64,000 nucleotides of DNA, taken from contig JAULBX010013430.1 of the NCBI GenBank assembly GCA_032358255.1, positions 1 to 64,000 of the forward strand, written 5' to 3'. The stretch is from Heterotrichella gracilis. Taxonomy: Eukaryota > Sar > Xanthophyceae > Tribonematales > Xanthonemataceae. Positions within the stretch are counted from its first letter, which is position 1. The number at the start of each line of letters is the position of its first letter. A program made the position numbers and the translations under genes. Under the pieces are notes generated by a model that ran no database searches, was not told the origin of the DNA, and saw nothing but the letters and a program-made list of their open reading frames with translations. Shown one piece after another: positions 1,554 to 63,700 of the stretch.

Positions 1554-4092
1554 ATGAGGTTTTCATCCAGATTGTCTGTCAGCCTCACCACGCTTGATGG
1601 CACAGCTCTGCAGGAAGTTTCACAGGGCAACTCACACTATGTTGTGGCCAAGCCTGGCGAGGAGTTTCTCATAGAAGTCGAAACTGGGGGCAGGCTTGAA
1701 CAGCTGTTGGAGCCAGGCAGATATAGGTTGGGTATATATGCTACAGTGGACGGTGTCGACCTAGGCTTTCACAAGAAGCAGTCAGCGAGGGGAAGCTGCA
1801 AGATGGTCTTCCAGGGCTTCCTCGACAAAGGTTAGTGGGAGATTGGTATTGGGCTGCTATTCGAGGGTTGAGAGTGTGTCCCTTTCTGCCCAACAACAGC
1901 TCCATGGCAGCAAGGGCTGGTTGCCTCTCCACTCAACACAGCATACTGACCGCTGCAAGTGTTGTGCAGTGAGCAAACAAGCGGGGCCGCGGGGATCAAC
2001 CTCCAACAGCTGGACGTACTCCCGCTTCAAGTTTGCTGAAATCCCCGCTGGCGCCGAGGCGGGGTGGGGCAGCCGTGCTGGGGTGCCTGTGAACCCTAGC
2101 AAAGGGAAAGTCAACGTGCAGGTGTTCAGGATGAAAAGGACGGAGCTGAAAAACAGGCCTCTGGCTGAGCAGGTGAACCAGCATGACCTGGGTGCTGCCC
2201 CCCCTGCCCCAGAGGGCAAGAAGTGGTTCTCAGCCCCGTCGCTGCAGGCAACCAAGGGCTCTAAACTCACTAAGGAGCACCGGCCAGACCTCCACCACTG
2301 GGCCAAGGTGTGTGCAAACCCTAAACCGTAAAGCTGCATCTAAGGAGCACCGGCCAGATCTCCACCACTGGGCCAAGGTGGGTGACCTGACCTCCCCTGC
2401 AGCACATATGTGTAAGCAGGGAACCTCCCCAGGCTCGGATGTATAACACCACTTACCTCTTTGTGTGTCCCCATTGCCAACACGGCGAATGCCCAATCAC
2501 ACTGCCTGGATACTCAATTGAATTCCCAATCACACTGCCTGGTACCCTAAAAGTTCTAGGGTTTAGGGTTTAGGGTTTATGGTACCCATAGGTGTGCCCA
2601 TTCACCCTGTGCGGGTGGGGAACCCCCTACGTGTCCCCTACCCTGAAGTACCCAATGCCCCCCCTATGCTTCCACCCTACAGACCTATAAAACAGGACCC
2701 CTGGAGCATGCACAAGAGTCGGAGACCCATACCCAGTCAAAATGCCTGGTGCCCCGTGCAGGTAGGGGGGCCTGTGGCTGAAGCCACCCTGTTCTACGAG
2801 ACAGCCGCCACGCTGCAGCTGAGGGGGGTGCTCCAGCCCGACAACCCAGTGCACCAGCGCATCATCGATGACCACCTGGCGTTCGTGCCCAAGGGTGAGC
2901 CGCTGCTGCATAAAAGCACATCATTATTACCATCCCTCTTCACAATCACGAACTGTGCCACAGCAATCATCGTTGCATTACCATAACCATCATCCAAATT
3001 GTGTGCCAGCTGCAGCCAGTGTCCCACGCACATACAGGACTCCTCTCCCAGCTCAGGCCATGGCAATGGGGGCAACACTCGCCATGCCTGCGGCTGTGCA
3101 TAGTGGTTCATCGTTGCCCACGGTGTCCAAACTGCGACTCATTTTCTACAGCATTCTGTCATCCAGGCCACTTTTACGTTCGCGCTCACCTTGGCATGTG
3201 CCCCACCCGCAGAGGAGCCTGGCGAGCCCGCAGCAGCGCTTGGGCCAAGCACCGGCAGGGCAGCCCGCTGCAGGCCTGCATCGCCCGAAGTCGTGGACCT
3301 AACCAAGGTACCTGCTGCATCACACCATCACCAATGATCAGTGATTCTTCATCATAAATCCAAAGGGCGTGGACCTCGCCAAGGTACCCATGCTCCACCG
3401 GCGCTGTCCCCATGCATGTGCACAGGCTAACACTTGGCACATGCCTGGCAAGGCACATGCGGCGCACAGTGCGGGGGGCGGCCAGGCCGTTGGGGATTTA
3501 TCTGCAGCCGTCAAATGCGATGTGCCATGGCGTGCATGTTCACTCAGATATGATCTGTGCCAATGGGGTGCATGCGCATGTACGCCTGCTGGCACAGTGG
3601 AAGCCCCATGCTGCTCATTCCTGCATGGTGGAATCCCATATGGGGATTCCCGTAGCATTTAATGGTCAGACCCGTTGCGCCGGGAGCTTCCCATTGACCT
3701 CACCAGTAAACTGCGGCTGTGTCCGAATACCCACTTGGTTCACATTGCGATCATGCGAGTATGGTGGCAAGGCCTGTGCCTGAAGCCCTGGTGTTGGCCT
3801 TCCCACAGGGGTCTTCCTGCTGGAGCCTTTAGGATGTAGGGTTCCTATAATGACTAGGCACGTGTAGGGCATAGGGTTCCTTATAGGGAAGTTTGCCTGT
3901 GCCAGAAGCCCCGCATTGGCAATCCCGCTGTGACTTTTCAGTGGCCCCCCGCAGGATGACATCCCCATGCCCCGCCTCAAGGTCGAGGGCCGGGAGGTGC
4001 AGCGGGACGAGTTTGCTGTGTGCGACATGACGGAGGGGGTGCGCGCACCTGCATGGGAGGTCAGGAAGAGGCCGCATGTGGAGGTGGAGTGA
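1554..4092 (+). CDS. DUF7918-like protein, tandem copy A
   Basis: Five exons: 1554-1830, 1970-2307, 2762-2894, 3213-3307 and 3955-4092, giving 326 aa with all phases consistent. The start MRFSS is chosen because copy B starts at the same place, whereas an upstream in-frame ATG (1533) is absent from B. Residues 1-90 include HYVVAKPGEEFLI and YRLGIYATVDG. This matches the pattern of the DUF7918 family (fungi, algae, large DNA viruses), which reads 'intrinsically ... F.V.V ... DG'. Exon 2 has YSRFKFAEIPAG followed by GKVNVQVFR, like the family's 'F.Fa ... G.I.V.VYR'. Exon 3 codes ATLFYETAATLQLRG. Exon 5 codes a charged tail ending at TGA. The biochemical function of DUF7918 is unknown. Five matching exons in copy B show that this is a real, selected gene. 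The family name is an inference from pattern. Confidence 0.85.
2340..2381 (+). repeat. Exon-edge echo of copy A exon 2 (3' edge)
   Basis: This is a near-identical direct repeat of 2272-2311, the last part of exon 2 (coding KEHRPDLHHWAK) with its donor. It lies 69 bp downstream inside the intron. The copies differ by a single C/T, a silent change. The first donor must be used, because reading past it meets a stop at about 2329. Copy B of the gene lacks this echo. Confidence 0.9.
2556..2579. repeat. Interstitial plant-type telomere repeat (TTTAGGG)n
   Basis: About three TTTAGGG units lie inside intron 2 of DUF7918 copy A, between an exon-2 echo and a weak exon-3 echo (about 2595-2655). Confidence 0.85.
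3364..3389 (+). repeat. Exon-edge echo of copy A exon 4 (3' edge)
   Basis: This repeats the end of exon 4 (GTGGACCT.ACCAAG plus donor GTACC; original 3290-3312) about 75 bp into intron 4. The same echo occurs at the same relative place in copy B (7379-7404), so it predates the A/B gene duplication. Confidence 0.8.
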
Positions 4093-8298: not shown

Positions 8299-8668
8299 GA
8301 CGCGGCAGGGGGGCTGGGGTTTAGGGTGTTGGTTTAGGGTTTTGGGGGTGGGGCCACATTGGGCAGGGTGGTCAGGTAAAAGCACCACCTGGACCTTGGG
8401 TGAGGGACAGCAGGGGGAAAGTGTTTTGGGGTTCATTGTTCAGGGTTATTGACTCTTCCCAGCAAAGAACTGACTGTGCCTGCCAGCTGGTGCACACAGC
8501 AATGATCTTGGCACGGTTGGGATAAGGGTTTAGGGTTTTGGCGCGGATGTTTGCCTGCAGGTGAATTCATACGTCAGCATGAATGTTTTTGTTTCGTGCC
8601 GCCATTTGATAAGTTACCTTTTTATATCTTACTATTTCAAGGGACTTTTGACTCTTAGAAACGTTGCA

Positions 8669-9431: not shown

Positions 9432-9981
9432 TATACAGGTCACAAGGTCCAACCTTCAGTGCACATATAAATGAAATTATTGAGTACACTTTGGGTACAC
9501 GGCCCATGGGTAGGCACGTCATGCAGTTGCAACCACCATCGTCACACGAACGATATTCTAGTCAACAGCAAGGCTAAAGGTGCCCAGCTTATTAAGCAAA
9601 ATAATAAAAAAAACAAGGAGTGTCAACAACTGGCATGCAACGTTGCTATGCTGCTGCAATACAGGATAATATTAACCGAATATGCTCAGCAATGGAACGT
9701 TTTCCGTTGGTGACAGGAAAAATGGTGGCGGCCGTGTCACGACCAAAGCCATGCCACCCCATGCCAGATTATTCAGGTACGAAAACAGTAATACTGAGCA
9801 GAGCAAACACGGGCAAAAACAAAATAGGTCAGGTAGTAACGAACGCAAAGCTGCCAATCAAAAGTAGCCGGGCTGAGTGCCTCGGTGTGTCGCGGAAAGT
9901 TGGGGTAGCGTGCAGGCCTTTGAGAACAGAGGGAGCGAGCACTTATGAAGCTTCAGGCCAAACCCCACTTGCGCGTGCAGT
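9432..9981. other. Gap holding the 3' UTR of the minus-strand secreted-protein gene
   Basis: No exon is supported here. The base composition is mixed and slightly AT-rich. Confidence 0.4.
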
Positions 9982-13852: not shown

Positions 13853-16800
13853 TCAAGGCGCCCCACCCCCCACCCCGCCCCTCAGCAGCTCCCGGGCCCG
13901 CTCCACCACACAGCGCCACACCTCCACCTGCCCCTCCACAAACACCCGCATGCTGAGCACCTGGCCCCCCACCACCCCACCCCCCACCACCCCACCACCA
14001 CGCTCAAGCTCCTCCAGCCTCGCACCCGCCACCCGCCAGGGCGATGCACCCTCCTCCACTTGCCCCACAAGCGCAGCCAGTGCAGCAGCCTCGGTGGCGG
14101 GGGAGGTGGTGGGGGGACACAGCCGCCGCCACGCAAACATTCCCCACCCCTCATCCTCCCCCCCTCCGCCACACGTGCTCCCTCTGTTGCCTACCCCGTT
14201 GACAGGGTTTTGGAAAGCCCTGCGGAGGGTTTCCAGCTCGCCAGCAGTTGCGGATAGTACCCTGAGGCACGCCAGCAGCCTCCCCGGGATTGGCCCCACG
14301 CGCAGGTGGTGCGCAAGGGGGATGCGGTAGCGGGCCAGCACCAGGGTGCGCTGTGTCGCCAGGGGGTCACTGGGAGGAACCTGCGGGGGCGGAGCGGGGG
14401 GTCAGCCCTGCAAAATGACAAAACCCTAGCAGGTGCTCACTTCAAACCCCTGGCAGGTGCGCACTCCTTGAGCACAAGCGCACTCCAAACCCTACCCAGT
14501 TGCGCCAGAATGCTTCAGACTAGGCCCAAGCATCTAGGGGGTTTGGCGCCAGATTAAGGGATTTTCGGTGTGGCTCTTGGGTCAGGTGGAGCCAGGTGGT
14601 TAGGGTTTTCAAGCATACCTCTAGGGTCAGGTGCGCCAGCTCGCTAGGGTTTCCCTCTAGGGCAAACCCGTAGAACAGCAGCAGCTTGCGGTTGGGCAAG
14701 GGGCCATATGACAGGTACACCTGCTGGCCCCGCGCAATGTCCCGGAACGTCCGGAATTTGAGCCCCCCCGTGGCTGGGTCCCGCCTGCTGTAGCGGTTGA
14801 TGTGGGGCCAAGGGGAGTGGTTCAGGAGGGAGGCGTAGGGGAGGAGGCAGGGCGAGGGGGGTTCGCCGGGCTCGGCCTGTACCTACGGCAGCAGGGGGTT
14901 TAGGGTTTAGAGTTTTCCGGATGAGACGAGGCGAGGCGAGGGGCTGGCGCCAGGCTTGGCGTGCCACAGCAGGGGGTTTCGGGTTCCATGTCCAGGTTTT
15001 ATAGTACTGCCTGGGGGTCAAAGCGAGGAAAGGTCTACACAGCCCTTTGGCAGCTCCATTGGAAGCTGGCATCATTCTGCCATGAATAATGCCTTGGCAT
15101 TTCATTCACTACACTGATCAAACATGGTCCAAAAAATGACGCAGAGTGGCATGACCAGGGGTTGAATCCTTGAGCATGGATCAGAGGGGTTGATCCAGGA
15201 GGGATTGGACAGTGGACAGATCAATAGTCCGCCTAACCCCACATCCACTCCGCCCTACACCGCTGTGGCACCCCCCATCCCAACCATAGCCCACTGAGCC
15301 CCAACCCCACATTCCCCGCACACCCCGCACCCCCACCAGACCCCACCCCTCACCTCCACAGCATACGCGTACCACAGCTCAGAGGCCCACAGGAAGGCGG
15401 GCCAGGTGAACCAGTGCGGGTGCAGGTGCTGCGGGTAGGCAGCCAGCAGCGCATCCAGGGTGGGGCGGAGGGAGGAGTACTGCTGACGCACGTGCTGCGG
15501 GAGAGGGTGGGCGAGGGGGGTGGGATCAGCCAGAGGGGAAGGCAGGGTGTGTGCGGGGTGGGGGTTGTGATGGGCAGCGGAATTTGTCTAGGGCATATGC
15601 TTGGGGGTTTAGGGTTGGGGCGGCCCGCCCGGTGGTGCTGGCTGGCCTGCAATGCGCCACCTCATCAGGAAGCAATGCACAGCTCGCCCCCATTCCCCCC
15701 GCACCCAGGTATTTAGGGTGAAGTCTGTGTAGCGATACGGCATGGGGTCCTGCGATGCATGGCTTGGTGCCGAATGACTGCAGAAAGCACACGCGCCCAT
15801 GGGCCCCTGTTCCAGTGCGCTACACTGAAGGTGTTTACTTTGTGGTCTTAAGGGTTTTTGGGGTGCCTAGGGCTTGTGGTGAGGTGCTCAAACCCACCTT
15901 CCTGGCTAACTCGCCATGCGACCTCGCTCACATTCCCGATGCTGCACGCACACTCATGTGACACTAGGGTATTTAAGGCATCAGGCTATTTAGGGCTTTA
16001 GGGCGTCCGGGTACACCCCCCCACCTCTCTGGCATGCACAAAGTCGCCATGCGCCCCACGCCCCTCGAGCAGATCCACCACCTCCTGCTCCATGCTCAGG
16101 CCCGTCCCAAAACCCTCGGGTAGGGTTTCCCAGAAGGGCGCCAGAAAACCCTCGGGGTCCTGGCGGTCAGCCATGGTCCAGATGAGCAGGCGGGTGTCGG
16201 GGGACAAGGGGAGGTGCATCAATGCGGAGCCCTGCACAGGAGGGGAGTAAACTGCATATGTCAGTAGGGTCTGAAAAAAATCATCTTATCTTCTTGGACC
16301 TCCTGACAACCTTACGGTTTTGAGCTGCATCTTATATATAAATAAATATATATAAATATTTGGTACAGCAATCAGACTTGCAGCTGTAGGATTTCGGGCC
16401 GCACCAGGCGGAGCGCAACCCTAGGGTTCTACGACGGTCCAACCCAGCACAACCTAGGGTGACCTAGGGTTTTTGGTCCCCACCAGCCCTGAGCCAACCA
16501 CAAACTCCTGATTCACTTTGAGCCTAGGATGTACGGTTCAAAATCTAGGGCTTAAGGTTAGGGAATCAAGACGCACCAGCTCGGAGCCGTCCACATACTC
16601 CTGATTGATGATGAGGCCAGGAGGGAGGGTGAGTGCGCACTCCCCGGCATGCAGCTGCCGGGTGGCTGCCAGGCCGCGCAGCCCGTGTGGCCCGAAGCGC
16701 GCAGGGGCCAGGCTCGATTCTGCGCCCTGCTCCTGTACCCAGCTGCGGGTGAGGAGGATTTCATTAAGGGGGCATCAAGGGGATGTGGCATTTGAGATTT

Positions 16801-19099
16801 TAATCAAATTACGTAATCAATCACGTAATTTGTGCAACGCCCAGCACACAACAGTGGTCACATTGCCAGGCCCAATTGTGCCAACAGTGCTGATGTGGAT
16901 TTTGTACATGTAGCTGTGGCTGTAAGCGCGCGCACCTGTGAAGGGCTGTCTCTGCGGCTGTGGGGGAGGAGGGTGGGGTGGCAGTATCCGCTGCGTCCTC
17001 ATGGTAGCCCTGGCACCGCTGGGCTATGAGTGGCAACAGGGCCTGCGAGCAGGCGCCTGAGTGCGGAGGGATTAGGGTTTTGATTCTGGGGTTTTAGGGT
17101 TAAGGGGTTTTGCGGTGGATGGACACCGTTCGGCTGTGAGCGGCAGCATTGCATGGGGAGGGTTTAGGGTCTCTGCCAATGTGATAGTAATGGTTGCCAG
17201 AACCCACATTGTTTGCCACAGCATGCCTAGGGCCCGGTGTTTAAAACATAACTCGTCGTTATATTACATTCAAAACCAGCATTGCTCAGGCTGTGAATAC
17301 GAGAAGAGCACAATCGTGGTAGTATTATGCAGCAGTTGTTGCAGCCCTCAATATTGCAGAATTGTGTAATCACCTTGTTAGATCATCCGTTGTCTTTGTG
17401 TGTGTGACGAGGTTGTTTTCATTGGGCTGCAACAACCGCGATGCACTGGCAACTCTACCCCACTAACCCCTAGCGGTGCCATAATACACACCACCACAAC
17501 CGCACCGGCAACGCTACCCCCCTGCCAGTGGGCTTATGCACGGCATACACTGCGGGGTCAGTGATGTGACCATAACATGTATCCAGTAGCACCTTGGACC
17601 ATAATGATTCGGCGGCCATGAGTCAGCACGCAGGTGCATGTATGCTGACCCCACCTACACCCAACTGTTTCCCCGCAACCCGCCTCCGTGCGCCAACGCA
17701 CCTAGCTCGCCATTTGCGGCCTGGTCCAGCAGCCCAGACAGCGCTGCAGCCTCGTTCCGTGGGGACAGCTCCCGTTTCAGGTCATCGGGCTGTTCCACAA
17801 AGTACAGCTCCTCCTGCAAGGTAATAAATACAAATTACTTCTGATAATAAATGATATTATTTAGTAAAGAGTAGTACAAGTGCAATGTAATAACAAATTA
17901 TATTATCAGGGGGCAAGAGTTTGTGCAACTTTTGACACCATCCCACAACCCTGAAATTTCTTCACGGATATGGAAAGAGGTCATCAAGAGGAGTCCAAAA
18001 CCGGTCTCAAATTGAAAAACAAATATGTTCTTTTAGGGTGGGGTGGGGGGGGTGTCTGGGGGGTGCTCTCAAAAAGTTCAGTGGGAAATATAAAAACTTG
18101 TTAACTTTTTTTTTAACCACGTTTTTTGGGCCCAGACTGGACTGTCACCTTCATTGCAATGTTTCCTTGCGGTTGCCGACCTTTCTTTGTTCAAGGGGTT
18201 GCAGGTAAGTAATTTTTGGTGCAGGAAACAGCCTACGGGGAGGAAATTAAATTAAATTAAATAAAGATAAAATGCATTATAAAATAGATTTAATTAAGTA
18301 AATGTATTAAAATAAATGATATTCATTTAAATAAGGGTCCAAAAAGGATTTTTCAGCAGGGGGGTGGGTCGGTGTCCAGGGGTGGGGGACATTTTCAAAA
18401 TGTTGGGATGGTGTTTTTCAAAAACTTTCCTCCTGCCCCCTGATATTATTTGGTGAAAAGCACATGCCTTTTGTGAACACAAGGTACAGCTCCTCCTGCA
18501 AGAGACACCACCCAAGGAGGTCTCAGGCTGTCCGCGCCACATCAGGACGGGTGATGAAAAATTGGGGTTGGGTTCTCACAAGAAGTGGATTCAAGCCACC
18601 GAATACTTGGTGGCTCCGAAATGTGGGAGTTCGGTGGGTATGGGCAGTTGTGGTGTAGCATACGGGCTTAATTGCCCATTCAAGTAGCGTACACCCAGCA
18701 TACCCTTGGGACGGCACACTTTTGACCGGTGTAAGCCACTGCCAGTAGGGGTCAATATCCGTCCACCCTCCTCATAGGGAGGTTGGGGAGCGCTAGGGCT
18801 AGGACCGTAGCAGTAGAGGGATGGCACCACCCTCCCCAACCTTCAATGAGGGAAGGCTAAGGCTAAGGCTAGAGCGGTGGGGGGAGAGAGGGCTAGGGCC
18901 TGGGATGTATAGCGGGAGGATGCCATGGCGCTCTCCCTCCTCTCACCTGGCTCAAAGCATCCACCCTGGCGGCCTGCAGCAGCTGGTCGACCTTAGCATC
19001 TGAAGCTCGGTCCACAGCAACCTCATGGAGGTCCAGCACCCGCAGCAGGTGCTGCCGCCCCTCCAGCAAGGCGTCGTCAGGAGACATGGCCAACCACAT
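13853..19099 (-). CDS. SET-domain protein lysine methyltransferase, SETD3/Rubisco-LSMT type (563 aa)
   Basis: Eight exons in transcript order: 19099-18947, 17813-17702, 17056-16936, 16742-16577, 16231-16025, 15494-15354, 14882-14619 and 14380-13853. All phases fit and the stop is TGA. The N-terminal third is helical and charged. The split SET domain begins with HGLRGLAATRQLHAGE (SAM-binding GxG region). It continues through the helical iSET insert (exons 5-6, with WFTWPAFLWASELWYAYAVE). It ends with YASLLNHS, GQQVYLSYGPLPN and LLLFYGFALEGNPSE, the expected NH-S and catalytic-Tyr motifs. Exon 8 codes the C-terminal Rubisco-substrate-binding-like helical domain with a Gly/Val-rich loop. These enzymes methylate Lys or His of abundant proteins using SAM; the substrate is unknown. 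No clear transit peptide is seen. A second Met (19087) is an alternative start. Confidence 0.88.
15910..16590. repeat. Scattered telomere-like CCCTAA/TAGGG motifs and AT-rich tract in introns of the SET gene
   Basis: Introns 4 and 5 contain many isolated TAGGG or TTTAGGG units. A strongly AT-rich tract lies at about 16330-16362, the only such stretch in this half of the gene. No open exon interrupts the model here apart from exon 5. Confidence 0.5.
17820..18440. other. AT-rich island in intron 1 of the SET gene
   Basis: Composition drops sharply to AT-rich (for example the ATTAAATTAAATT region near 18245). The island sits between exon 2 and an echo of the exon-2 acceptor (18478-18512). Near its ends are inverted copies of a short motif: TATTATCAGGGGG near 17895 and CCCCCTGATATTA near 18436. 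It may be a small inserted element or an expanded intron segment. Confidence 0.5.
18478..18512 (-). repeat. Exon-edge echo of SET gene exon 2 (5' edge)
   Basis: On the minus strand this repeats the acceptor TTGCAG and the following codons for EELY.V found at 17820-17790. The copy lies upstream in the transcript with a working-looking acceptor, but the frame beyond soon diverges. Confidence 0.8.
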
Positions 19100-35532: not shown

Positions 35533-35579
<47 letters not shown>

Positions 35580-44806: not shown

Positions 44807-47800
44807 ATGTCACCCAGCATATGCATGCCATGCCGCTCACCACCCACCCACCCATCACCCAGCCACAGCCACCGCTCGGCGGCCAGGCGGGTGCCGCCCA
44901 CTCGAGCAGCTGACGCAAACCACCAACAACCACAGTCGGGATCGAACCCTGGGCCTCCCGGCAACCGCCTATTTGTGTTTGGCAACGGGTATACAGCCAC
45001 TGCCCTGGCTAGCTACCTCACAAGTTCAGAGCACGAGGGCGAATGGTACGCACCATAGCGTGTGCCAGGACAGCCCTTGGTGCAGTCCACCTGTCGCAGT
45101 GCGCTGGCTGTGGTCTCTTGCCCTCATAGGGTTTGGGACGGTTTAAGCACAAACCCTTGCATAGGATTTTGAGTGACCCAGGTGCATACCCTGCACACGA
45201 CTCTTTTTTGACGTCTTTGTACAATGCATTTAATCATCTGTTGCCAGGGAGGACAAACGCACCATGCATGCATATGTACAGCGCCGGTGCCAACTTACCC
45301 TACTAGGGTATTGCGTAGCTCATCTGGCAGCTGAACCCCGGCGCTGTGGCGCAGGCGAGTCACCACCACCACCCGCAGAGAGGAGAGGATGGCGCAGCCC
45401 TCAACCACCGGGCCCCACCACGCGCTCGTGCACTTTGACGACCAGCAAGGGTTGCGGTGCGCAGGCCCAAAACCCTCCAACCTACACTCAAAACCCTACA
45501 CCAAACCCTACTAAGAGTGCGGCCCTCCATTGGCCTTGGCCCCACCCCACATTGATGCCCTTTGATGACCAGCAAGGTTTGCGGTGCGCAGGGCCCAAAA
45601 CCCCTGCACCAAACCCTATTGGCCCCCAGCCGCTACCAACACACAGAACTAAACATGGCAGCGAGCTTGTTTGACAACAACTTACACTTTGTTTGGCATT
45701 GCTCAACTCGATGCCATCCTGGCGATCAGCAAAGGTGGCGGTGGTCAAAAACCCTACTTGCCCTAGCTACACACCGCACAGACCTTGTTGTAACAGCGAG
45801 CTCGCCGTGATCTTTTTTGAACCCATTTTCACTTTGCCTAGCCATTGCTCACCTTTGATGCCATCACATGGCAGCCAGTGGGCCATCCCACCACTGCTCC
45901 ACCCAACTCAGGGCACTTGATGACGCAATGGTTGGAGATATTGCATGCGTGGACACGCTCACTTGCATAATTCAAAGGACTGGCTGAAAGCGCTTTTATC
46001 TTGCCCTGAAATGTTGTGGTGTTGGGCGTGTGGGTGCAGGGGTGATGCGCTGCTTGCCCTGCGCCAGTCCACCCACGTGCTCTCCACCATACCCCCCAAC
46101 AGCGACACCCACACAGATCCGGTAGGGTGCCGCCTGTATAAACCCTACTCCCAAACCTAGGTATAGGCCCAGCACTCTTGCCTAGCCACATCCTGCTCCA
46201 CAACATGGCGTTGGGTGGTGATGTGGACACGCCTAGACACTACTAAATGAAAAACAAAAAACGACATATACCAACCGGCCGCCCACATGCTTGCATGGAA
46301 TGTGTGCACAAAACCAATGTGCATTAACAATGTTTATAAAATTGCAAGTATTAATGATGATACAATAATCACTTGCCCGATCGTAAATACACTAACATCC
46401 CTCGGCAGGTGCTGGAGCGGGTGGGTGATGAGGTGGCTGCGCTGGCGGGTGGTGGTGGTGGGTGTGTGCGGTGGGTGGGCTACCTGAGCAGCAGCAGTGT
46501 GTATGGGGACCACCAGGGGGGGTGGGTGGACGAAAGGTGGGTGGAAGGTGGGGGATCAACACCATCTGGGGCCTGCATATACACATGATATGCAAGCGTT
46601 GAGGGGATGTCAAATTGCTCAAGTGCACGTGGTGGTAACCTTTGCATTGTGCATATGGCATAGAGAGACATGGCGAAGGGTAATAAGATCTAATTTATTA
46701 TATAAGATTGATTAGACTATTATACCTTATTACCCTTGAAATGGCCAAGGGTGGGTGGGCATGCGTAGGCACCTGCATTGAGGGCTTGGGGTTTAGAGTT
46801 TGCACCACTCGTTCCGCGCACACACCCCACCCATTGAGCCTTTGCAGTTCCGAGCTGCGCGCAAATGGGGGGGCGGGGCTGTTGCGGGTGGTGGTGGAGC
46901 GGCAGTGGCTGGAGCTGTGGAGGAGGGGGGGGCTGCCGATGCACGTGTTCAGGCTGGGAGGTGAGGCGTGGGGAGGAGGATGGGAGGTGCGGTGTGGGTC
47001 GTGCAGGTTGTCCAACTGGGGCGTGAAAGTATGTGGCTGTACGTTCAGGTGCCCGGTTTTGCTGTGGCATTGCCATTTGGGGGTGGGGGGTGGCTGTGGA
47101 TGGCGCACGAGTTCTTCATGCACCTTGGCATGGGTTGTGAGCCTGTCCCGGCCTCTATGTATTCCCCTGTGTGGGCAAGTGGGACACCTATTGGCATGCG
47201 CCCCTGTGCAGTAATCATTCATTGCCTATTGCAATACTATCCTGTGCAAGTAATCGTTCATTGCCTATTGCAATACTATCCTGTGCAAGTAATTATTCAT
47301 TGCCTATTGCAATACTATCCTGTGCAAGTAATCATTACTTACCTGATTGGCATGCGCCCCTGTGCAGGCATCTATGGCCCCGGGCGTAGCGCGTTGGATA
47401 CAGCACAGCTCAAGGTGGGTATGCTGCATGTGACACAACCCTGAACCCTAAATCCACAATCATAAACCCTTACTTGAATCCCTAAACAACCTGGTGGATG
47501 CCGCACAGCCCAAGGTGGGTACACTTGTGGACTGTGCCCGCATTCGACGCGCTGTCACACCATATGGTTCGCCCTCAGATGGATTCAGGGATAAGGGTTC
47601 GACCTTAGATAGATTTCAGGTTTAAGCACAGGGCTTGCCCTCGTATGGGAGCTTGCATGCGCAGTACCACAGATGCCAATGAAGCATCGCCACACCTCTC
47701 AGCCCCCCAACCAACCACCAACCACCCATGTAACGGAAATATATGTGGGAAGTATATGATCCATAGTAATTACTGACTGGACAATTCTCGTTTTTGGGAG

Positions 47801-49890: not shown

Positions 49891-52800
49891 TCAGCTGTTC
49901 TTCCTGAGCAGGTACAGCTTTGTGGTCAAGGGGAGGTCAAAGGGTGAGCCAGGGGGGTGGAAGCGCTCAACCACCTGGCGAACCTGCAGGGAGGGAAACA
50001 CCAGGTGTCAGCAGACGCTGCAGCATGACTATGGCTTATCATATTTCAATGCAGACAGGGGGATAGTGTCATAGACGCAGAGTGGAAGCCACATTCACCA
50101 GAGCTGCATTAAATAACCTTGAACCCCAAACCTTGAACGGACAAGGCAATACATGCAGGTCTAACCAAAACTTCATGCTTTTCTCCCCCAGCAACCATCC
50201 CATCCAAATCCTAAATAATAAATCCTTTAGTCCCCCACCTGTTCGTTGAAGTCCTTCCTCTGCGCCCCAGTGACCACCCCCCTAATGAAGCTCATGCAGT
50301 CCAGCAGGTCGGTCAGGGACACCGCGCTCTTCATGTGGCAGGCGTTGGGGTGCAGCGAGTAGTCAACCATGCGGAACAGGTCGCCTGGGATTGGGGGGAT
50401 ATATTTTTGTTAGAAAGCAGGGGGGGGCCAGAGGGGGAAGGCAAAGAGAGGCCAAACACCAGCACAGTTGGCAATGTAGCATCTATTGACACTCGGTCGG
50501 TAGAGATAGCCCACCAAACCCTAAAGGTGAGGACCTGAACCCTCCACATCCCGCATGCGCTGGATCCCCGAAGATGCCACAGCCCCACAACATTGCAAAT
50601 CGCGCACCCTGCGTAAGCTACCCCTTCCACTTGCCATAGTCCGGCTGAATAATATGTAGGGTTTTTGCAATTGGTCACAAACCCTACCCCACTCACCCTG
50701 GGTCAGCCGCTCCCCCCACGTGTCGTAGTCCCTCTGCTTGGAGAACCGGCTGTAGCCAGGGCTAACGTGCTCCATCAGGCTCTCCAGCGCTCCCACAAAG
50801 GGGTTGCGCAGGTCCCTGGGTAGGGGTGATAGGCTATCGTGAGGAGGGGAGGGGGCGGGAACGGGCGGGGCAAGGCGGGGGGCGGCAGGGGGAAAGTTGT
50901 ATGATGGGTGATTGGTGAAAGCTGCTATGGATAGCAGTGGGGCAGCGTAGGTGTGTGGGAGGAGGGAGGAAGGGGGTGTGGGCGGGTGATCAGGCATTGT
51001 GGTATTGCCACTACTACATCACATGCCAGGGCAGGGCAGGGCAGCGCCCAGCACGGCCCCACACCCTAGGATTCATCAAACCCTACAAGGGTTTCCCTTG
51101 TAAGGGTTTCCCTCTCACCTGTCGCTCCAGGCCACCGCCATCCTTGAGCAATACGGACCAAAGCCTAGGGTTTCCTCGCCCGACCACCACAACCCTACAT
51201 GGGTTATATCCGCTCACCTGTCGTTCCAGACCACCGTCAGCAGCCCCCCATCCTTGAGCAGCAGGGACCAAACCCTAGGCTTCCCTCCCCCGACCACCAA
51301 AACCCTACAAGGGCTCTCCCTCTCACCTGTCGTTCCATGCCACCGCCAGCAGCCCCCCATCCTTGAGCAGGCGGTGCATCTCCCCCAGGGCGCGCGGCAC
51401 ATCCACCAGGTGCAGCCCGTGCATGACGGTGACCAGGTCAGCGGTGGAGGGGCGCAGCACGGTGTGCTCAAGGCGGGAGCTCACCACCGTGATGTCCACC
51501 TGGGATGTAGGGTTTAGGGTTTAGGGTTGGGTTTTAGGATCTAGGGTGTGTTCCAGGCGAGAGCTCACCACCGTTATGTCCACCTGGGTTTCCCATGGAG
51601 TGCATGTGAGTTGGTATGTAGAGTTTGGGGTTCACATGAAACCCATGTGAGGTGGGGATTTAACGTCCAGGGATTCAGGAGTCAAGCGGCGTGCTGTCCA
51701 CCTGAGATGGCAAGAAGCAGCTGACAGCACCACCCTACCCCTCAACCCTAATACAGATTGCGAAGGGGCATTTTTCAACTCACATGCCACACCAACCACC
51801 CAAGGGCAGCAAACCCAAAGGACCATTATTCGCACCTCGTGTGCTTGCGCGTTTTCGTAGGCCTGTGCGGCTCGGACGGCGTCTGTTTCCACGGCAATGA
51901 CGCGGAAGCCCCTGGTGTGGGCGGGTGGGTTGTGAATGAGGGGGGGTTGGGGCGAGAGGGAATCTTGATTAGGGGTACACAGCACCCGTATGTGCTGTGA
52001 GACTGTATATAAGCTTGTGAATACAGAGGGAGGTGCTGTAGCTAAACCCTACAGGGGTTTGTAGACCCCACAGGTGCGTGTGTCTGCAGCCTGACCTGCC
52101 ATTGTGGACACCCACAGACAGACAGGAGGTACATGAGGGGTTGGTGGAAAGGTATGTGGTGAGAGGAGTAGCGCTGGTGCCTAACTAGCAAAAAAGCCAA
52201 CAATAAAACAAGCCAAGTGTATAGGGGTCCCCAGGCTGGAGATTACTGGCAACTGTGCACACCCACAGAAAAGATGGGGCATAACATGCTATGCCAGATA
52301 TTTCGGTATCAAAGCGTGGGTATAGGTGAACTGTTCTTTGGGCAAGTTTGCTTCAAACTGTAGTGTAGGTGGTTTGAAAACAGGGGAGTCGAGATCACCT
52401 TTTCGCCAGTTCAACCGCTCCCCTCCCCGTGCTGACCGCAATGTCCACCGCCGTTGGGTAAGAGTGGCCCTTGTCCGGAAACTGGTGCGTGATCGTGTCG
52501 AACACGCTCTGGGGATACTTCGACCTGCCAAATCAAGTGTCGGAGCTTGTAAAAAAGGCGGGAAAAGCATCGCCCAGCAGGTGTTTGGAGTTGCTGCTGG
52601 AGGCACACTTACCTGTAGGCTACCAGAGGGTGTGCAAAGCGTTGCTGCCGTCCCAGGCCGTGCATCACAATCCCTTCCGGGACCTCGTCCCGTTGCTCCG
52701 GTGGCTGGGTGACTCCCATGGGTGAGTGTGCGTAGCCAGGAGGCAGCGGTGGTGGGCTGTCATCACTGCGCACAGCCGCTTGGGCGAACAGGCGGGCTTT

Positions 52801-53785: not shown

Positions 53786-56700
53786 TCACCCCTCAACCAA
53801 GGGGTCATACAATTCCCTCCCCAGGGCCAGCAGGGGACCCAGCGCCTCCCACTCAAACTTGCGCGCAAACAGCGGGCACTGCTGCGACATTTCCTCAAAC
53901 CTGATCCCACTCGACCCCTCGTTCCCCTTGGCACTCCCAGCCACCCCAGCACCCCCCTCGAGCAGCGGGTGGGGTACAACCCGCGTGCCCACGATATCGA
54001 TCATGCCATCGCCCCCCTCCCAGCTCTGCATGCTGCGTTGGGAGCCCAGGTGCACTTGGTGGGTTTTCCCTGGCGCCAAATTGATGTTTCCCCCCTGCTG
54101 CTGGTGCGCCAAAGTGATATTTTCCCCTTGCTGCCGACGCCGCTGGAGCATGTGCATGAGCGCAATGTAGTGCGCACACAGGGGGTCCCACGCGCTGTGG
54201 TGGCCGGTGGCGGCATTGGTGGGGAGAGGGGGAAGGGAGCACCTGGCAGTCAGGGAGACAGCCATGTGGGTGCCATGTGATGCTCCAATGGGCCCCTGTG
54301 ATGCCACCTCACCGATGTGTGCATTTATGTGTGCTCCTGCCGGGCCGCCATGTGGCACTGCCTGGTTGGCTCCTGATGCTGCCGCTGCGCCATGTGGCGC
54401 TTCCTGGCTGCCGTGTGATGCTGCGACCGCACCAAGTGGGGGTGCTTCACCGGCAGGTGGTTTGCCGGGGTGGGGTGCTGCGACCTTGGCATGTGGTGCT
54501 GCACCCTTGGCATGTGGTCCCACAATGCTGCCATGTGTTCTATCGTTGCTGGCGGATACTCCATCTGGCGTGGTGCGATGGGGCCTTGGAAGGCTGGCCA
54601 TGTCATTTGCGCTGGCCCTGTGTGGATACCCCGTCCCAGGGTTTTCCAGAAGGGTCCTGGCGCCATGGGGATGCCTGGCCATGCCACGTGAATCCCCGCA
54701 AAAACCCACTGCCTCCCCTCTCCTTATCACCACACCACCACCCCGTGCCCCGCCACTGCCATACCTCGCTGCCCAACCCCCCTCCCCTCCTGAATTTGCG
54801 TCCAAACCAGCATTTAGCCTCATCTCTGAAGTTGAAGGCTCAAAACCTGACCTCGAAAAGAGCTCCAACAGGCATGCCTTGCTGCCAAGGCAGGCTTTGG
54901 CGCTGGCATGCGCCCTGGCCACCCCCTCCTCCCCACACCCTTCATCCTCCTTCTCCCCCCTGAGCACCCGCAGCAGCGCCCCATCCACTGTCTCAGCCCC
55001 ATGGGTGTGGGGGTGGAGGGCTACACCCTTCTCCCACCAGGTCATGGTCACCCCCCCTTTGCAATCGGTTTCATTGTCCAACCCCTTGGTGGCAAGCAGG
55101 GTGGGGATGTAGTGTTCGTCGCTCACGCAGCTGCGGTCCCTGAGCGGGTCCCCGGGATCACGCCTGTGGATTACAAACGACATCTAAATAATTACAAGGA
55201 GTTTTGTGTATTATACAAGGGCACGCAGCTGCACGCCTATTTGGCAAAAACATGGACAAATGTGAAGATTCTGGGGATGCAGCGTGCGTCTTGGAACTGA
55301 AAAAACAGTAATGGATAGGAATATGGAGCATCAGCTACACAGCCATTTCTTGCTTCTTTATAATATTAGCCACAATGGCATATTGAATTGTACACTGAGC
55401 TTAAGCTGAAGAAACAATCGCACATGGTTCAGCTTACATACTGGCTCGCTCACTCGCAGCAATTTTTATGCCCGCAAACACGCCAAAACCTCTAGCCACA
55501 TGACTAACTCCAGGAGTCATGGGAAAAAACGGCCTACCTGTGCTTGATCCCCACCCAGCACTCGTTCTGGAAGGTGCTCCTGAAGCGCTGGTCGTCCACC
55601 ACCAGCTGGGCATGGGTGCGGGTGAGCATGAACCACTGGCTGGACTTGCGCCAGGCGCTGCGGGGGATGCCGCCTGCCGCCATGGGGGGGTACCACCTGC
55701 GCGGGTGTGAGTAAATTTGGGTGGGTGAGCATCATGTAAAGAATAGGCCCCAGTGGTGGTGGGGGTGGGGGTGGGGGTGTTTGGGACACTTGCAAGGTGC
55801 ACAAAGTGGCTCGCCAACAGCCAATTATTGATATGTGGTGTGTCAAAAACTTTTAACAGGGATTGCTGTCCAATTTTTTATTGATCTTCAGGATGTAAAG
55901 CAATTGCCTCCTGCATTTTTACCTCCCTGTTACTTCCCTGGGTTACTTGCACACATCCATCCACCACCCTTGACCCTGCACTCCATACCACCCACCCTTG
56001 CCCCGCACCTGTTGACCTCCCTGCTCCTCCCCTCCGTGGTGTTGCACGCATCCACCCTGCTCGTCCCCTCGCTCAGCGCCTGCATGTACACCACCCCTGG
56101 CGGGTGCAGGGGGGCGCATGATTCAGACAGCAGCACCATGTGGCTGACCAAGGGGTCTGAAAGTGCGGCGCGAATTAGGAGGAGCTCAGCTTCCATCTGG
56201 ACGAGAAACGGGGTCATTTAGGGTTTGGGCTGGGGTTTTGGCTAGGGTGTGGAAAAAGGGTGTGAAGGGGGTGAAGGGGGTGAAGGGGGTGAAGGGGCGC
56301 ATGACTCAGACAGCAGCACCATGTGGCTGGTTAGGGGTTCGGACAGGGTGGAGCAAAGCAATAGGAGCTCAGCTTCATCCGGGGGGGGGAGGGGGTGATT
56401 TGGTGTGCATTAAGGGTTGCCATTACTGCAAACAGCAGCATTGGGCGAGGTAGGAATGCTCAGAGGGAAGGAAAGACAGTCCTTACCATGCACAGTGCGC
56501 ATGCACGTGTGCACCGACTGGCACTGCAGTCATGGCGCACGTGCACCACACACATGCCTTCAACTGCCATGCAATTGCGTTTACATCATCCTCGGGAATG
56601 CCATCAGAGTTGCTGGGGATGGGTCGCGCTTGTCATGTTAGGATTTTAGGGTTTTGGGCGAGGGCGCACCACCGAGTGCTGCGCCCACTGCATATGCACC

Positions 56701-58771
56701 CGCTCCCCTATGGATGGGTGCGATTACAATGTAAGGGTTTTACGGTTTGTGTAGGGTTTTGGGCTAGGGCGCACCACCGAGTGCTGCGCCCACTGCACGT
56801 GCACCCGCTCCCCTGTCTCCCTCCTCTGGAAAAGGCTGCCATTCCCATAATACACCCCTGGCGCAGGGTGCACGTATATCGAAAACAGTACCTCCCAAGG
56901 CTCTCCCCCCTGCAAAATAGATGCTATTCTGCTCCCCTGGGGATGATACTGCCCTCCCCTCATGCTGCCCTGGTGCGCTGTGTTGTGTGCCCCTTGCTGC
57001 CAATTACGCCCCTTGTGAAATGCGCGCGCAATGTCGCCGAATCTGTAGAGGCCCACCCCAATGTCCTGCATCCCCCCGGGGTTCAACCCCACGTATTTGA
57101 CCTTGTTGCCCCCCTCAAATTGCCCCCCTTGACCTTCCCCGTGCCTCCATTTGAAATCCGCCAGATCCCCAACTGCTGCCCCAGGGGAAGGGATAAACGT
57201 GCCGCCAGGGGGGATGTCATATTCGAGGGTGTGTAGGAGCTGCAGGGCTGTTTGTGAGGCTGCATCTAGCCACTTGCGCCACATGGGCTCCAGGGGCATC
57301 TCCCCTCTCACCAGAAATAGCAGTGCCACCTGGGGAAGCACAAAGCAGGTAACACCACATCACCAAAACATGAATGTGACATACACTGAACTAACTTCAG
57401 TCTACCGTAGCTACGTGTACAGCCTGTCCTTCAGATATCTCAGGAGCAGATATACACATTCAGTTTGAAGGCATGCCGCCTCCCCTAGCGCCATCTTGAA
57501 AAGCGCCCACAAGCTTTAACAAATTAGCAAAGCTTAATCAACAAGGCAGTGGTGACAGCTGTGCGCCACCAGTGCGCTGCTTGGCGCCGCATGTGCGCAC
57601 TCCTGTCATCTGGTATTGCTGCCATGCATGTGCAATTGGCAGTACATGACTCACCTTGGGAATCCGAGGATAAAGTGGATCCTCTGCGGTGGTGGTGGCT
57701 GTGGTGGCTGTGGTGGTGGTTGTGGGGAGGGGCTGGATGTGTGCCTGCATGCAACCACAACACCGCATGGACACAGGGACCATGGGTTTTGCCGGATGAA
57801 TAACACCTTTGACCCTCTCAACATTTACAGGGCTTGGTCCTGCTTGTATGGTGCGTGCAGGGGTGTTAATATATAAACCAGGAACGTTCCATTTTCCTGG
57901 AATATATATTAACACCCCTGGTGCATGCTATCACGATTTTCTTTGGCATAAATACGTTTGACACGCATGCACAGTCAGGGACAGGTACCCTCCCCGTGGT
58001 CACTGTACTTTATGATAATCCCCGCCGTGATCAACCTTCATTGCAGAGCACCCAGCAGTTGCCCACCGCCTCCCGCTTGCTATGCATGCAGCTCATGCAG
58101 TTGGGTGTGGCGCACCCACCATGCAGCGGTGGGTCCCGGCAGCACTCAACTGCACGAGCTGCATGCATAGCAAGGAGGGAAGGCAGCGGCAACTGCTGAA
58201 AGGCTTGCAACCAACGTCGACTATTGGCAAGTGGGGAGTTCAACCAAGGAGAAAACGTTTCAAGCAGGGTGGTAATGATCAAGCATGTTTGTGTGATCTC
58301 AAACAGGAAAATTTGGCTGAAGGTATTTTGCGCAATGGCAACGGGACAGGGGAGGTTACATAGGGAGGTGAGGAGCCGTCAGCTAGGGGTGCACTTAATT
58401 TTTTTTTTTTTTTACTTTCGTGTCCCCCAATGATCACCACATACTGCAGACTCAATGCATGCTTCAAATAATTCCATTCCACTCTCGACTGCTCTACTGC
58501 CCCTCCCTTGCCCCACACAATCCCCACTCACCTGCTCCCTTCCCGCAGCACCTTCCACCCCTGCTCCCCTTGCCCACCCGTCCACCTCCACCCCCACCCC
58601 TCGCTCCACCAGCCAACTCTGCCTCTGCACCACCCCCACCAGCCCCGCCACACAGAAACACCCCACCACCATCACCAGGAGCTGAAATAGGCCCTCCCGG
58701 GGGGCCGCGCGATGCGGGAATTTGCGCAACCCCCCTGGGCCAGGTGGGCTGGCTTTGCGCTCCTGCGCCAT
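53786..58771 (-). CDS. GT14 (core-2/I-branching type) glycosyltransferase with long insertions (about 869 aa)
   Basis: Six exons in transcript order: 58771-58532, 57744-57655, 57329-56775, 56196-56009, 55696-55538 and 55163-53786. Phases are all consistent. Exon 1 codes a type II anchor (LFQLLVMVVGCFCVAGLVGV). Exon 2 is a Thr-rich stem ending YPRIP. Exon 3 starts KVALLFLVRGEMPLEPMW, carries an insertion of about 100 residues, then FSIYVHPAPG and VQWAQHSV. Exon 4 has SHMVLLSESCAPLHPPGVVY. Exon 5 has WRKSSQWFMLTRTHAQLVVDD. Exon 6 has CVSDEHYIPTLLA and WWEKGVALHPHTHG. It then has about 300 residues of His/Gly/Ala-rich filler (PHAKGAAPHAKV, HGSQEAPHG), and returns to the family C-terminus CPLFARKFEWEALGPLL. 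This is a Golgi sugar transferase; substrate unknown. The filler could include an unrecognised intron. Paralogue of the gene at the left edge. Confidence 0.85.
56288..56382 (-). repeat. Echo of GT14 exon 4 (5' part) with lost acceptor
   Basis: This copy of 56196-56105 still translates as DEAELLL...LTSHMVLLSESCAP in the right register, but the acceptor AG has become GG after a C-run. It lies about 100 bp upstream of the true exon in the transcript. A four-fold GTGAAGGGG unit lies between. Confidence 0.85.
56652..56712 (-). repeat. Echo of GT14 exon 3 (3' edge)
   Basis: Repeats 56765-56815: codons for QWAQHSV, donor GTGCGCC and intron start. Confidence 0.88.
57858..57920. ncRNA. Short perfect hairpin in intron 1 of the GT14 gene
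   Basis: Arms 57858-57875 and 57903-57920 are perfectly complementary for 18 bp (CAGGGGTGTTAATATATA). An inner CCAGGA/TCCTGG stem continues the structure around a small loop. It may be a small inverted-repeat element or a small-RNA precursor; expression is unknown. Confidence 0.45.
58053..58198. ncRNA. Long imperfect hairpin, pre-miRNA-like, in intron 1 of the GT14 gene
   Basis: The sequence 58053-58107 pairs with 58143-58198. The core TTGCTATGCATGCAGCTC (58077-58094) matches its partner (58157-58174) perfectly, with few mismatches through the next 13 bp. The outer CAGCAGTTGCC also pairs. An inner CACCCACC/GGTGGGT(C) stem closes the top. The total fold is about 146 nt with short internal bulges, which is unusual for unselected sequence. 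Confidence 0.5.
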
Positions 58772-60746: not shown

Positions 60747-63700
60747 TTACCGCCGCATGCCCCGGCCATTACCCCTCCTGCCATACCCCCCGTGGCCACC
60801 ACCCCTTCTCCCCTGGTCCCCACCCCACCCCCCACCGCCTCCCCTCCCTTCCCAGTGCCCCTCCCCCATGGGGTACTCTTCTTCATGATCCTCCCCCTGA
60901 TCGAAAGCAATCGGTCGCTGATCAGGCGTCCAATGCACAGGCGGCGCCATCATCATGGGTGGGATGACTGCTGGTAACAAGGGGGGCGCAAGCAAGTGGG
61001 GCAAGGGGAAGACGGGAGCAACCGGGGGGAGGAAAATGGGTTGGAGTTGTTGGGGATAGCCCACTCCCTCATCCTCATACTCCCCCCACTCCTCCTGGTG
61101 GTGGGTGTAGGGGTGGGGATGGGGGTGGTGCGCGTACTCCCCTTCGTAACCTCCGCCCCCCCCCCCCTCCTCCTCCTCCCCCCACCCCTCCTGGTGGTGG
61201 TGTGGGCGGGGGGGGTACCCGCCGCGCGTGTACCCTCCATCCCCCCCCCCCTCCTCCACCTCCCATTCCTCATGATTGTGGCGAGGGAGGGGGTCGCGGT
61301 GGTGGTGGTGGTGGGTGGGGTGGTGGTGGCGGGGGCCGGCAGGGGGCGTGTCATGGTGGTAGTGAGCAGGGGGGGGAACCCGAGAGTGGCGCTGGTCCGG
61401 GTAATACTTCTCCCTGAGATAGGGGGGGTGACCATCCTCCCTATTTTCTCTCCCTGCACGCAGCACGCATGGTAAGTAACATCGAATCAAATCAAACACG
61501 TTTTAGTATAAATCGAATAAACCACATTTAATGTATTCTAACGTAATGTGGGTGCTTCCTCCCCATTGGATCAGCCTAAACATAGCACACTTTTTCGATA
61601 CTAAATAACAACACGCTGGCAGCATAGAAAAACGATCAATACCCTTGGCTGCAAATGAAATCTATGGGCTGCAACCGCATGGGGCGCAATCTTCTGGGGC
61701 GGCACGATAGCGGCATTCTGAACGTGTTGAATCTATCTCTTGGTGCCAAGAGGACTTTGCCCGTGCAATGTGGGTATGCTTGTGAGGAAAGGATGCAACA
61801 CAGCACATACAACACAAATCCTACACCAGGGCACGCTGGAGGGTTTAGGGTTTCCTCGCACCGGTGTCGTCCCCCCTCCGCCGTACATTCCTGTCTTCCC
61901 CGCGCCCCCCTTCTGACCGCCCCCGCTTCCCCCCTTCCCTCCCCCACCGTTGCTCCTCCTCTTCCCCCCCCCACTCCCTGGCGATGGCCTCATCAAAGGG
62001 GAAGAGGGCATCCAGCAGGCGGGAACCCTCAGCAGGGTTTCTAGGGTTTCTGGAGTTTGGGGTTTTCCCCCGCATGGCTTCTTCCAGGGCGTCGTAGGCG
62101 TTCTCAAAAGCGAATTTTACCTGCAGTGGGGATCACCAAAACATATTCATATTTCATGTTGTTTGGATCAAAAGGTGGCATCATGAACGTCTTTACCTAA
62201 CCCTAGACCTGTCATCCTTTGCACATTTGTTGCTTACTGCAGTGTCTAGTTTGTGCTGTTTGATAGGGTTTAGGGTAGGTTGCCCTCACCGCCTGCATCT
62301 GGTGGGAGCCCACCGACACATCCCTGCCGGTCTGGGGATCCTCAATGCACACCCGCATCTCCAGTGCCTGACGCATCTCCTCCTGGGGGGACAGGGCCCG
62401 ATTGCAGGGCAGGTCGGCTTTCTTCACAATGCCCCCCTTGCGCAGCGACACGGCTTGGTCCTGCGGGGTGTGGAGAGCGGGAGGGAGGGGGGGTGAGGTT
62501 GGGGGTGTGTAGCTGAGAGAGACGACGCAAAGGGTGTGGTTGGGACGGTTTCTCTTGTTCTCGATTCAGGGTGTGGGTTGAAGATGTGAATAGGGCTGCG
62601 GAGGGCATGCCGTCATTATTTCTGCTACTCCGTTATTCTGATGTTAAGACGCAGACCCATTTGCACTCAAATGGTCCGCAGAGTGAACTTAATTCACATA
62701 TTACATGGCAAAACCCCATTATCTGATCATTCAAAACCCCCTTCCCATGCACTCACGTAGTAGTCAAAGTCCTTCCCAAATCGCTTGAAGAACCCCATCA
62801 GCAGCCTGCCCAGGTGGCGCGTGTCCATCCCCTTCCTCCCCTCCTCCTTGATGTGCGCAATCACCATGTTGCACACGCTGAAGCTGCCCAGGCCACCTGC
62901 AAAAGGGGTGGAATTAGGGTTTTAGGTTAGGGTTTGGTCTTAGGGTTTTGTGGCACCTGCCCTCCCCTCCTCCTTGATGTGAGCAACCACCATGTTGCAC
63001 ACGCTGAAGCTGCCCAGGCCACCTGCAGGGGGGCGGGGAGTAGGGTTTTGGTTAGGGTTTGTGTTAAGCGTTTTGGGTAGGATTTTATGATACCATGCTG
63101 CACACGCTGAAGCTGCCCAGGCCACCTGCAAAAGGGTCGAATCAGGGGTTTTGGTTAGGGTTTGGTCTTAGGGTTCTGTGGCACATGCCCCTCTCCCCAC
63201 CCCACCCCACCCACCCCACGGCTACCAAGTCTCCAAGTATCGGCAGGCAATGACAGCAAGTACCCTGAATGTGACAACTCCCCTCCTGCCCCCATCCCCA
63301 TCCCCATCCCCACCCACCCCACCCACTCCCACACCCACCCGTGGCCACGTCGTTGAGCCCCTTGTGCTTGAGGAATGTCTTGAGCAGCAGCACCAGGGGC
63401 CGCAGGGGGGGCAGCGCCGCCACCTGGGACTTCATGTACTCAGCTGCCTGCGGGCCCTGGTCGCTGGAGATGGAGATGTCGACCGGGATGCCCTCATGGG
63501 TCACAACCTGGGACGGGGTTTTATTAATACTAAAAATGATAACAATTATTATGGTATCATGCTATTATCATTTCTACAAAACCAGAATATACCAAGATGC
63601 CTTCGGGGGTCACAACTTGCGGAAGGCGGGAAGACGGGTGGGCTGTGACTCTACAACCCACCATGCTAATCTGCTAAACTGGCTTTATCACTGGTACGTT

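Follow-up and report, generated by a model that had tools for sequence, protein, structure and literature searches.

Exon-edge duplications with telomere-like filler in introns of the alga Heterotrichella gracilis

Why do the introns of an alga carry copies of the edges of their own exons? The question is raised by the first 64,000 nucleotides of a contig (C136:1-64000, hereafter the window) of the Heterotrichella gracilis assembly, which comprises 68.5 Mb in 903 contigs. An initial annotation of this DNA had described at least 20 direct repeats of 30-100 bp, copying an exon end with its splice signal and the start of the adjoining intron, within about 50-700 bp of the original. Self-alignment of the window yields 44 local direct pairs at E ≤ 0.01 and 36 at a stricter cut-off of E ≤ 1e-3, which bears out the number of these echoes. 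The copies measure 18-249 bp at 72-100% identity (both 100% matches are short and of telomere type), with start-to-start distances of 70-1251 bp, mostly 70-270 bp. Two features escaped the initial annotation: the copies are mostly separated by telomeric filler, and intergenic DNA is almost free of the repeats. Our best account, on which our judgement is evenly balanced, is that breaks near splice junctions are repaired with duplication and telomeric filler, which lengthens introns.

Direct repeats at exon-intron junctions

Repeats were counted in the window together with 17 nuclear stretches of 10 kb (L012-L028), 234 kb in all. This sample contains 126 direct and 7 inverted pairs, compared with none in one block shuffle; the pairs are therefore not due to chance. 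At least one pair occurs in 15 of the 17 stretches, hence the phenomenon is genome-wide, with about one pair per 2 kb of sampled nuclear DNA. The spacing is 60-200 bp in 91 of the 126 pairs. Placement was analyzed in the window plus L012-L032 (274 kb), where 4 of 133 pairs were removed as low-complexity, leaving 129. Their median identity is 83% and just four are at least 98% identical. An assembly artefact in bulk, which the initial annotation had named as fatal to its reading, is therefore unlikely.

Two observations concern particular contigs. At L022:1670-2094, copies that are 96-100% identical lie around a run of 100 N (1877-1976); they may be due to faulty assembly or may form a very young array. 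Contig C1 (894,458 bp; stretches L007 and L009-L011) looks like a bacterial symbiont or contaminant of the assembly. Its GC content is 0.33-0.36 in three stretches, versus 0.50-0.57 in the sampled nuclear stretches, and it shows one direct and no inverted pair in 30 kb; it carries a SET-domain reading frame.

Exon, intron and intergenic labels were obtained with a small hidden Markov gene finder trained on the genome itself. Splice signals were seeded as a GTRAGT-like donor and a YAG acceptor and became GT[GA]NG and (C/T)TGCAG after training. The 274 kb were thereby divided into 82 kb of exon, 105 kb of intron and 87 kb of intergenic DNA. Seven of the ten predicted window proteins match at least one Pfam family, and the PsbP match (E 2.7e-51) runs across the splice junctions of the spliced model. 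Pfam gave no family for the DUF7918-like protein A or for the genes lying at 41-43 and 45-48 kb, whose names are those of the initial annotation, and an Rfam scan of the window returned nothing at gathering score.

When the 129 pairs were placed at random, 15.5 boundary/intron pairs were expected. We observed 44, a number reached in none of 400 placements. The junction enrichment that the initial annotation had proposed to look for is thus present, in support of its idea of a frequent, genome-wide duplication process preferring splice junctions. Exon/intron pairs (21 versus 16.6 expected), boundary/boundary pairs (13 versus 8.8), exon/exon pairs (14 versus 9.6) and intron/intron pairs (24 versus 24.3) lie closer to expectation, and a single intergenic pair was found where 29 were expected. 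In total, 61 of the 129 pairs join an exonic or boundary-spanning copy to an intronic one. The earlier statement that copies always span a boundary is overstated, in view of the intron/intron and exon/exon pairs. In 12 of the 14 exon/exon pairs the offset is divisible by 3 and no intron intervenes; they are therefore probably ordinary, unrelated protein repeats. Several intron/intron pairs adjoin junction pairs (e.g. in L013, L020 and L025). Likewise, "nearly every large gene" has to be softened: a pair is present in 36 of the 60 predicted genes that have three or more exons, and a copy in 68 of 336 introns.

The 61 exon-intron pairs of the window and samples comprise 24 donor, 23 acceptor and 14 untyped cases, so that both sides of the boundary are copied about equally. 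In 45 of the 47 typed pairs it is the intron that holds the echo, in part because of the way pairs were selected. Homology covers medians of about 40 bp of exon and 20 bp of intron, and is lost in the background within 60-70 bp towards the exon and 30-50 bp towards the intron. The median gap between original and echo is 63 bp for donors and 51 bp for acceptors. Mismatches affect 97 of 847, 103 of 852 and 155 of 844 sites at codon positions 1, 2 and 3 (p 3e-5), positions 1 and 2 changing at 11-12%; such a pattern arises when an unconstrained copy is set against an exon under constraint. In addition, 60 of the 64 indels in exon-intron pairs shift the frame. Alternative, mutually exclusive exons, which the initial annotation expected the process to supply, are thus rejected, the frame not being kept and codon positions 1 and 2 also changing. 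Overall, the echoes look neutral, decaying and non-functional.

Telomeric filler between the copies

The gaps between copies hold the most specific clue, which is lacking in the mechanism first proposed. Among the 44 exon-intron pairs with a gap of 10-150 bp, 34 gaps contain hexamers of the telomere repeat TTTAGGG, compared with a mean of 11.5 and a maximum of 19 in 200 draws of random intron segments of the same lengths. The control segments were drawn from all introns, and the comparison is therefore conservative. Each of the 34 motif-bearing gaps has a single orientation, sense in 25 and antisense in 9. Gap sequence displays 7-base periodicity (0.354 versus 0.284), and the motif is more frequent in gaps than in outer flanks (34 versus 21 of 44; p 0.008).

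The filler unit is the telomere repeat of the species. The array (TTTAGGG)6 occurs in 16 contigs and, among the contig ends that were checked, starts at most 7 bases from the contig start in six (C70, C140, C526, C609, C717 and C770), in outward orientation. A telomerase RNA-binding domain is encoded on contig C626. Together with the PsbP gene, a telomere of this type would suit a green alga.

The motif is commonest in introns. CCCTAAA and TTTAGGG together are found 166 times across 103 kb of intron, 16 times across 87 kb of intergenic DNA and 3 times across 82 kb of exon, and the most enriched intron 8-mer, AAACCCTA, is 104-fold over composition. CCCTAA or TTAGGG occurs in 42 of the 68 introns with a non-telomeric echo versus 73 of the 268 others (p 2.7e-7), an association that is clear in two of four intron-length classes (60-200 and 300-450 bp). 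Genome-wide, in counts that include overlapping registers of one tract, the 17-mer AAACCCTAAACCCTAAA occurs 2731 times (control 0), and same-orientation pairs of ACCCTAAA (CCCTAAA) occur 2518 times at 75-105 bp (control 8) and 1063 times at 170-200 bp (control 6). Convergent motif pairs at 75-105 bp number 82, the reverse count representing the same sites. By eye only, several of the printed matches (e.g. C11:137250 and 137336) resemble acceptor-plus-exon copies between fillers.

The 5' halves of introns contain 44 sense and 30 antisense motifs, the 3' halves 73 and 16. Since the bias is weak in the former and strong in the latter, it suggests selection against TTTAGGG, which contains AG, ahead of the 3' splice site, and not a strand-biased mechanism. 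Another motif, TGCATGCA, is strongly over-represented in introns (47 versus 1.5 expected) and at least as strongly in intergenic DNA of the window and L012-L032.

Origin of the duplications

Duplicating repair could proceed as follows. A break with staggered ends, or a pair of nicks tens of bases apart, would open across an exon-intron junction. Once both ends are filled in, the stretch bounded by the nicks (some 40 bp of exon and 20 bp of intron) would stand on both sides (A-A'). One end would then gain short telomeric DNA, probably made by telomerase or else captured, and joining of the ends would give A - telomere filler - A'. The copy attached to the rest of the exon would stay in use and the other would become a neutral, decaying intronic echo. 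Repeated rounds at one junction would build up arrays that repeat about every 100 bp; overall, introns would become longer, without any being born. As to what directs breaks to junctions and genes, our guess is a coupling to transcription or splicing. That such a coupled process is still at work, breaking exon-intron junctions and mending them with telomerase-made filler so that the junction is duplicated each time, is a possibility that we put forward tentatively. If true, intron growth would be driven genome-wide by an engine that targets junctions and links telomere maintenance to gene architecture.

Several points weigh against repair with telomeric filler. The gene models on which all placement depends are ab initio and made without RNA. 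Hexamers are absent from 10 of the 44 gaps, one of them a 144-bp filler between copies that are 95% identical, for which a genome search for a source matched only itself, and the outer flanks are themselves motif-rich (21 of 44). Fillers of young pairs, among them those at least 94% identical, are already degenerate and not exact telomeric arrays, unlike mammalian interstitial insertions, for which an exact initial state has been inferred; telomere score and pair identity do not correlate (r 0.09, n=44). The intron halves of the copies are no more diverged than the exon halves (0.131 versus 0.140), although local alignment hides such a difference and makes the comparison uninformative. Motif density in intergenic calls rises towards genes, from about 0.3/kb beyond 500 bp to 0.56/kb within 200 bp, perhaps owing to untranslated introns or to the duplication process. 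Finally, 17 pairs qualify as young (identity at least 90%, gap 10-250 bp), of which three in L022 are spoiled by the N run. Of the 14 that are testable, seven have a gap resembling a flank (51102, 56647, 62863, L013 341, L020 3019, L025 4110 and L026 206). This may result from array structure, from a shared motif or from plain tandem duplication of a motif-bearing unit, and is expected for 51102 and 62863, both of which lie in arrays. The gap is unlike both flanks in the other seven, most clearly at 2270, 35611, 51461 and L021 8213, less clearly at L025 3782 and L030 2534, the last one (L029 257) being an exon/exon pair; this points to inserted material.

The flank-like gaps and motif-rich flanks favor the main rival. 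Telomere-like stretches already present in introns would be fragile and break, and synthesis-dependent strand annealing would copy the exon edge, or motif-bearing units would be tandemly duplicated, the gap being old intron. Introns without a detected pair indeed carry the motif (2.7% of bases versus 1.2% in intergenic DNA), and proximal repair-mediated duplications of up to 619 bp, some of them of splice sites, are described in human (PMC2671141). On the other hand, the rival does not easily explain that the 24-bp gaps of L014 8124 and L020 376 are telomere-like end to end, that half of the testable young gaps differ from both flanks, or that spacings are so narrow and copies overwhelmingly direct; we regard it as rather doubtful. 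Alternatively, small tandem duplications might arise everywhere, only those with a constrained exon edge staying recognizable or being tolerated. The neutrality of the echo side fits this idea, and in a simulation built on the 58 exon-intron pairs (of 61) whose offset does not exceed 400 bp, detection drops from 0.88 to 0.54 when both copies drift. After this correction, however, uniform placement predicts 87 intron-only and 84 intergenic pairs, where 24 and 1 were observed; these expectations may be about one quarter too high, 14 of the 61 pairs having too little intron for boundary typing, which leaves the conclusion unchanged. Moreover, motif density, which is independent of pair detection, is several-fold lower in intergenic than in intronic DNA. 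Detection bias alone does not account for the focus on junctions and genes, and an absence of targeting is disfavored as unlikely.

A mobile element with long target-site duplications, such as an introner or a fragment of a Penelope-like or telomere-associated retroelement, would likewise give an insertion flanked by duplicated target, with one orientation per gap. We consider it very unlikely: telomeric sequence makes up the top intron 8-mers, the genome holds no second copy of the one long filler searched, so that no shared element body was noticed (a genome-wide clustering of introns was not made), and introner target-site duplications are reported to measure 3-9 bp in families with DNA-element signatures (PMC9860276), versus roughly 45-80 bp for the copies in young pairs. 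A function of the echoes as alternative exons or decoy splice sites, or of the motif as a selected intronic splicing signal, would agree with the GT kept in 23 of the 24 donor echoes, with the sense bias in the 3' half of introns and with a local peak of CCTAA 25-30 nt before the 3' splice site in introns of at least 100 bp (19 hits versus 7 and 12 in neighboring bins), where telomere-like sequence may double as a branch point. Yet the indels are mostly frameshifting, acceptor echoes score below the real site in 19 of 23 cases (AG being kept in 19 of 23), and a selected orientation close to the 3' end would leave the position of fillers between copies unexplained, making function highly improbable. 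Hardly any credit is left for the birth of introns by duplication of an AGGT-containing exon segment, the mechanism that the initial annotation had invoked, even though a boundary-crossing duplication made a new intron in one potato gene (PMC4974935). None of 304 usable introns has a start matching the downstream exon start and an end matching the upstream exon end (shuffled pairing averages 0.1-0.2), in a test that detects births still at least 60% alike over 24 bp without indels and misses old or indel-bearing ones. Therefore, existing introns are enlarged.

The best account, a telomere-filled, junction-preferring duplication that enlarges introns, would be a variant of known break-repair insertions. 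In mammals, short telomeric arrays are inserted during break repair, with telomerase acting at breaks, and 10 of the 155 loci tabulated (Table 1) have a flanking duplication (Nergadze et al. 2007, PMC2246262). The present loci resemble these interstitial insertions in being telomeric arrays within chromosomes, some flanked by duplication, but differ in that they gather in introns and are enclosed by duplicated exon edges. Since 108 of the 126 offsets in the 234-kb sample measure 60-300 bp, the duplicates are also closely linked and extend up to several hundred bp, splice sites included, as are the 824 repair-mediated duplications of the human genome (Pace et al. 2009, PMC2671141); here, in contrast, there is about one pair per 2 kb, with direct orientation, telomeric filler and a preference for junctions. 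Fill-in of complementary overhangs of tens of bp by CST-Pol alpha, CST also filling telomere ends, gives small tandem duplications at experimental staggered breaks in mouse and human cells, in a report whose main text does not use the word "filler" (PMC8355091). In the potato RdRp gene, the duplicated segment crosses an intron-exon boundary, as it does here, but that single case concerns a new intron, whereas many loci show intron growth only (PMC4974935). Introners, described above all in fast-evolving lineages, for instance green algae, are likewise intron-associated insertions at genome scale and create introns from shared element copies (PMC9860276), whereas existing introns are enlarged here. 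A literature search over titles and abstract openings, with few subscription journals covered, found no account of intronic junction duplications with telomeric filler. Intron growth and the abundance of short interstitial telomere repeats in some genomes are usually studied apart, and here both coincide. About 2,500 counts of same-orientation motif pairs at 75-105 bp (overlapping registers included), with decayed exon edges beside them in sampled loci, make it possible to test how breaks at splice junctions are repaired, and constitute a reservoir of cryptic splice sites.

Echoes along the window

The simplest anatomy is found in the DUF7918-like gene A (2270..2384, plus strand), where the exon end with GTGTGTG (2270-2314) is followed by the filler CAAACCCTAAACCGTAAAGCTGCAT (2315-2339), unlike either flank, and by a donor echo (2340-2384) that is 96% identical over 45 bp. 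The DUF7918-like gene B has a weak donor echo at 7292-7318/7369-7397 on the same strand (86% over 29 bp, E 4e-3), contained in the E ≤ 0.01 list only. As far as names match models, a pair lies in or at the edge of each gene listed by the initial annotation, this gene being a weak case. The first SET gene, on the minus strand, has an acceptor echo at 14841..14985 (73% over 67 bp; gap without telomere hexamer), a donor echo at 16481..16630 (75% over 57 bp; sense telomere-like gap) and a short acceptor echo 682 bp off (17796..18502; 96% over 25 bp).

On the plus strand, the second SET gene carries acceptor echoes at 21332..21498 (82% over 62 bp; AAACCCT in the filler) and 22448..22660 (78% over 51 bp; gap without motif), a donor echo at 22102..22312 (87% over 70 bp) with an antisense (TTTAGGG) filler at 22172-22246, and three copies of a donor-side exon edge at 22711..23123 (72-80% identity). 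At 24070..24335, also on this strand, an exon end with its donor is present three times (79-85%), with A/C-rich, CCCTAAA-like spacers. In the PsbP gene (28449..28706, plus strand), two acceptor echoes (82-90%) precede the real acceptor, whose exon starts at 28668, and the fillers at 28508-28544 and 28600-28647 include TAAACCC repeats.

Minus-strand echoes follow. Tandem copies in the BTB gene (34243..34494) are 73% identical over 157 bp. The exon-edge echo at 35611..35902 (95% over 74 bp) encloses the 144-bp non-telomeric filler (35685-35828), which is unlike both flanks. A donor echo at 36293..36481 (85% over 47 bp), where the exon model is uncertain, has a sense telomere-like gap. An exon end with the donor GTGCGTG forms an array at 41187..41464 (72-90%) with CCCTAAA fillers between the copies, an acceptor-side exon-edge copy lies at 41534..41831 (77% over 133 bp; gap without motif), and an exon edge is repeated three times at 41987..42339 (75-87%) with CCCTAAA-rich spacers. 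The gene at 43.4-44.4 kb, probably the one called TROL, is copied at its stop-codon end only (43330..43455; 90% over 39 bp; gap without motif).

The gene called SDR by the initial annotation has two donor echoes on the plus strand, at 45411..45603 (85% over 66 bp), with a filler containing AAACCCTA, and at 47395..47521 (89% over 27 bp), with a 73-bp sense telomere-like filler. The remaining echoes are on the minus strand. In the methyltransferase gene (Methyltransf_11 in Pfam, E 9.3e-14), an exon end with its donor (GTGAGAGG/GTGAGCGG) occurs three times at 51102..51370 (81-90%), and an acceptor echo at 51461..51588 (91% over 44 bp) has a 40-bp filler (51505-51544) that is mostly CCCTAAA-like in coding orientation and unlike its flanks. 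The GT14/Branch gene (Branch in Pfam, E 3.6e-32) shows an acceptor echo at 56111..56401 (77% over 109 bp) and a donor echo at 56647..56814 (95% over 63 bp), whose 42-bp gap (56710-56751) is telomere-like but resembles a flank. In the PAP_assoc gene (PAP_assoc in Pfam, E 2.9e-12), the acceptor-side exon start is present three times at 62835..63190 (75-92%) with CCCTAA fillers.

A repeat of another kind than the telomere-filled pairs, a 39-bp minisatellite of 3.5 copies with 94% matches, lies in a predicted intron at 47203-47336.

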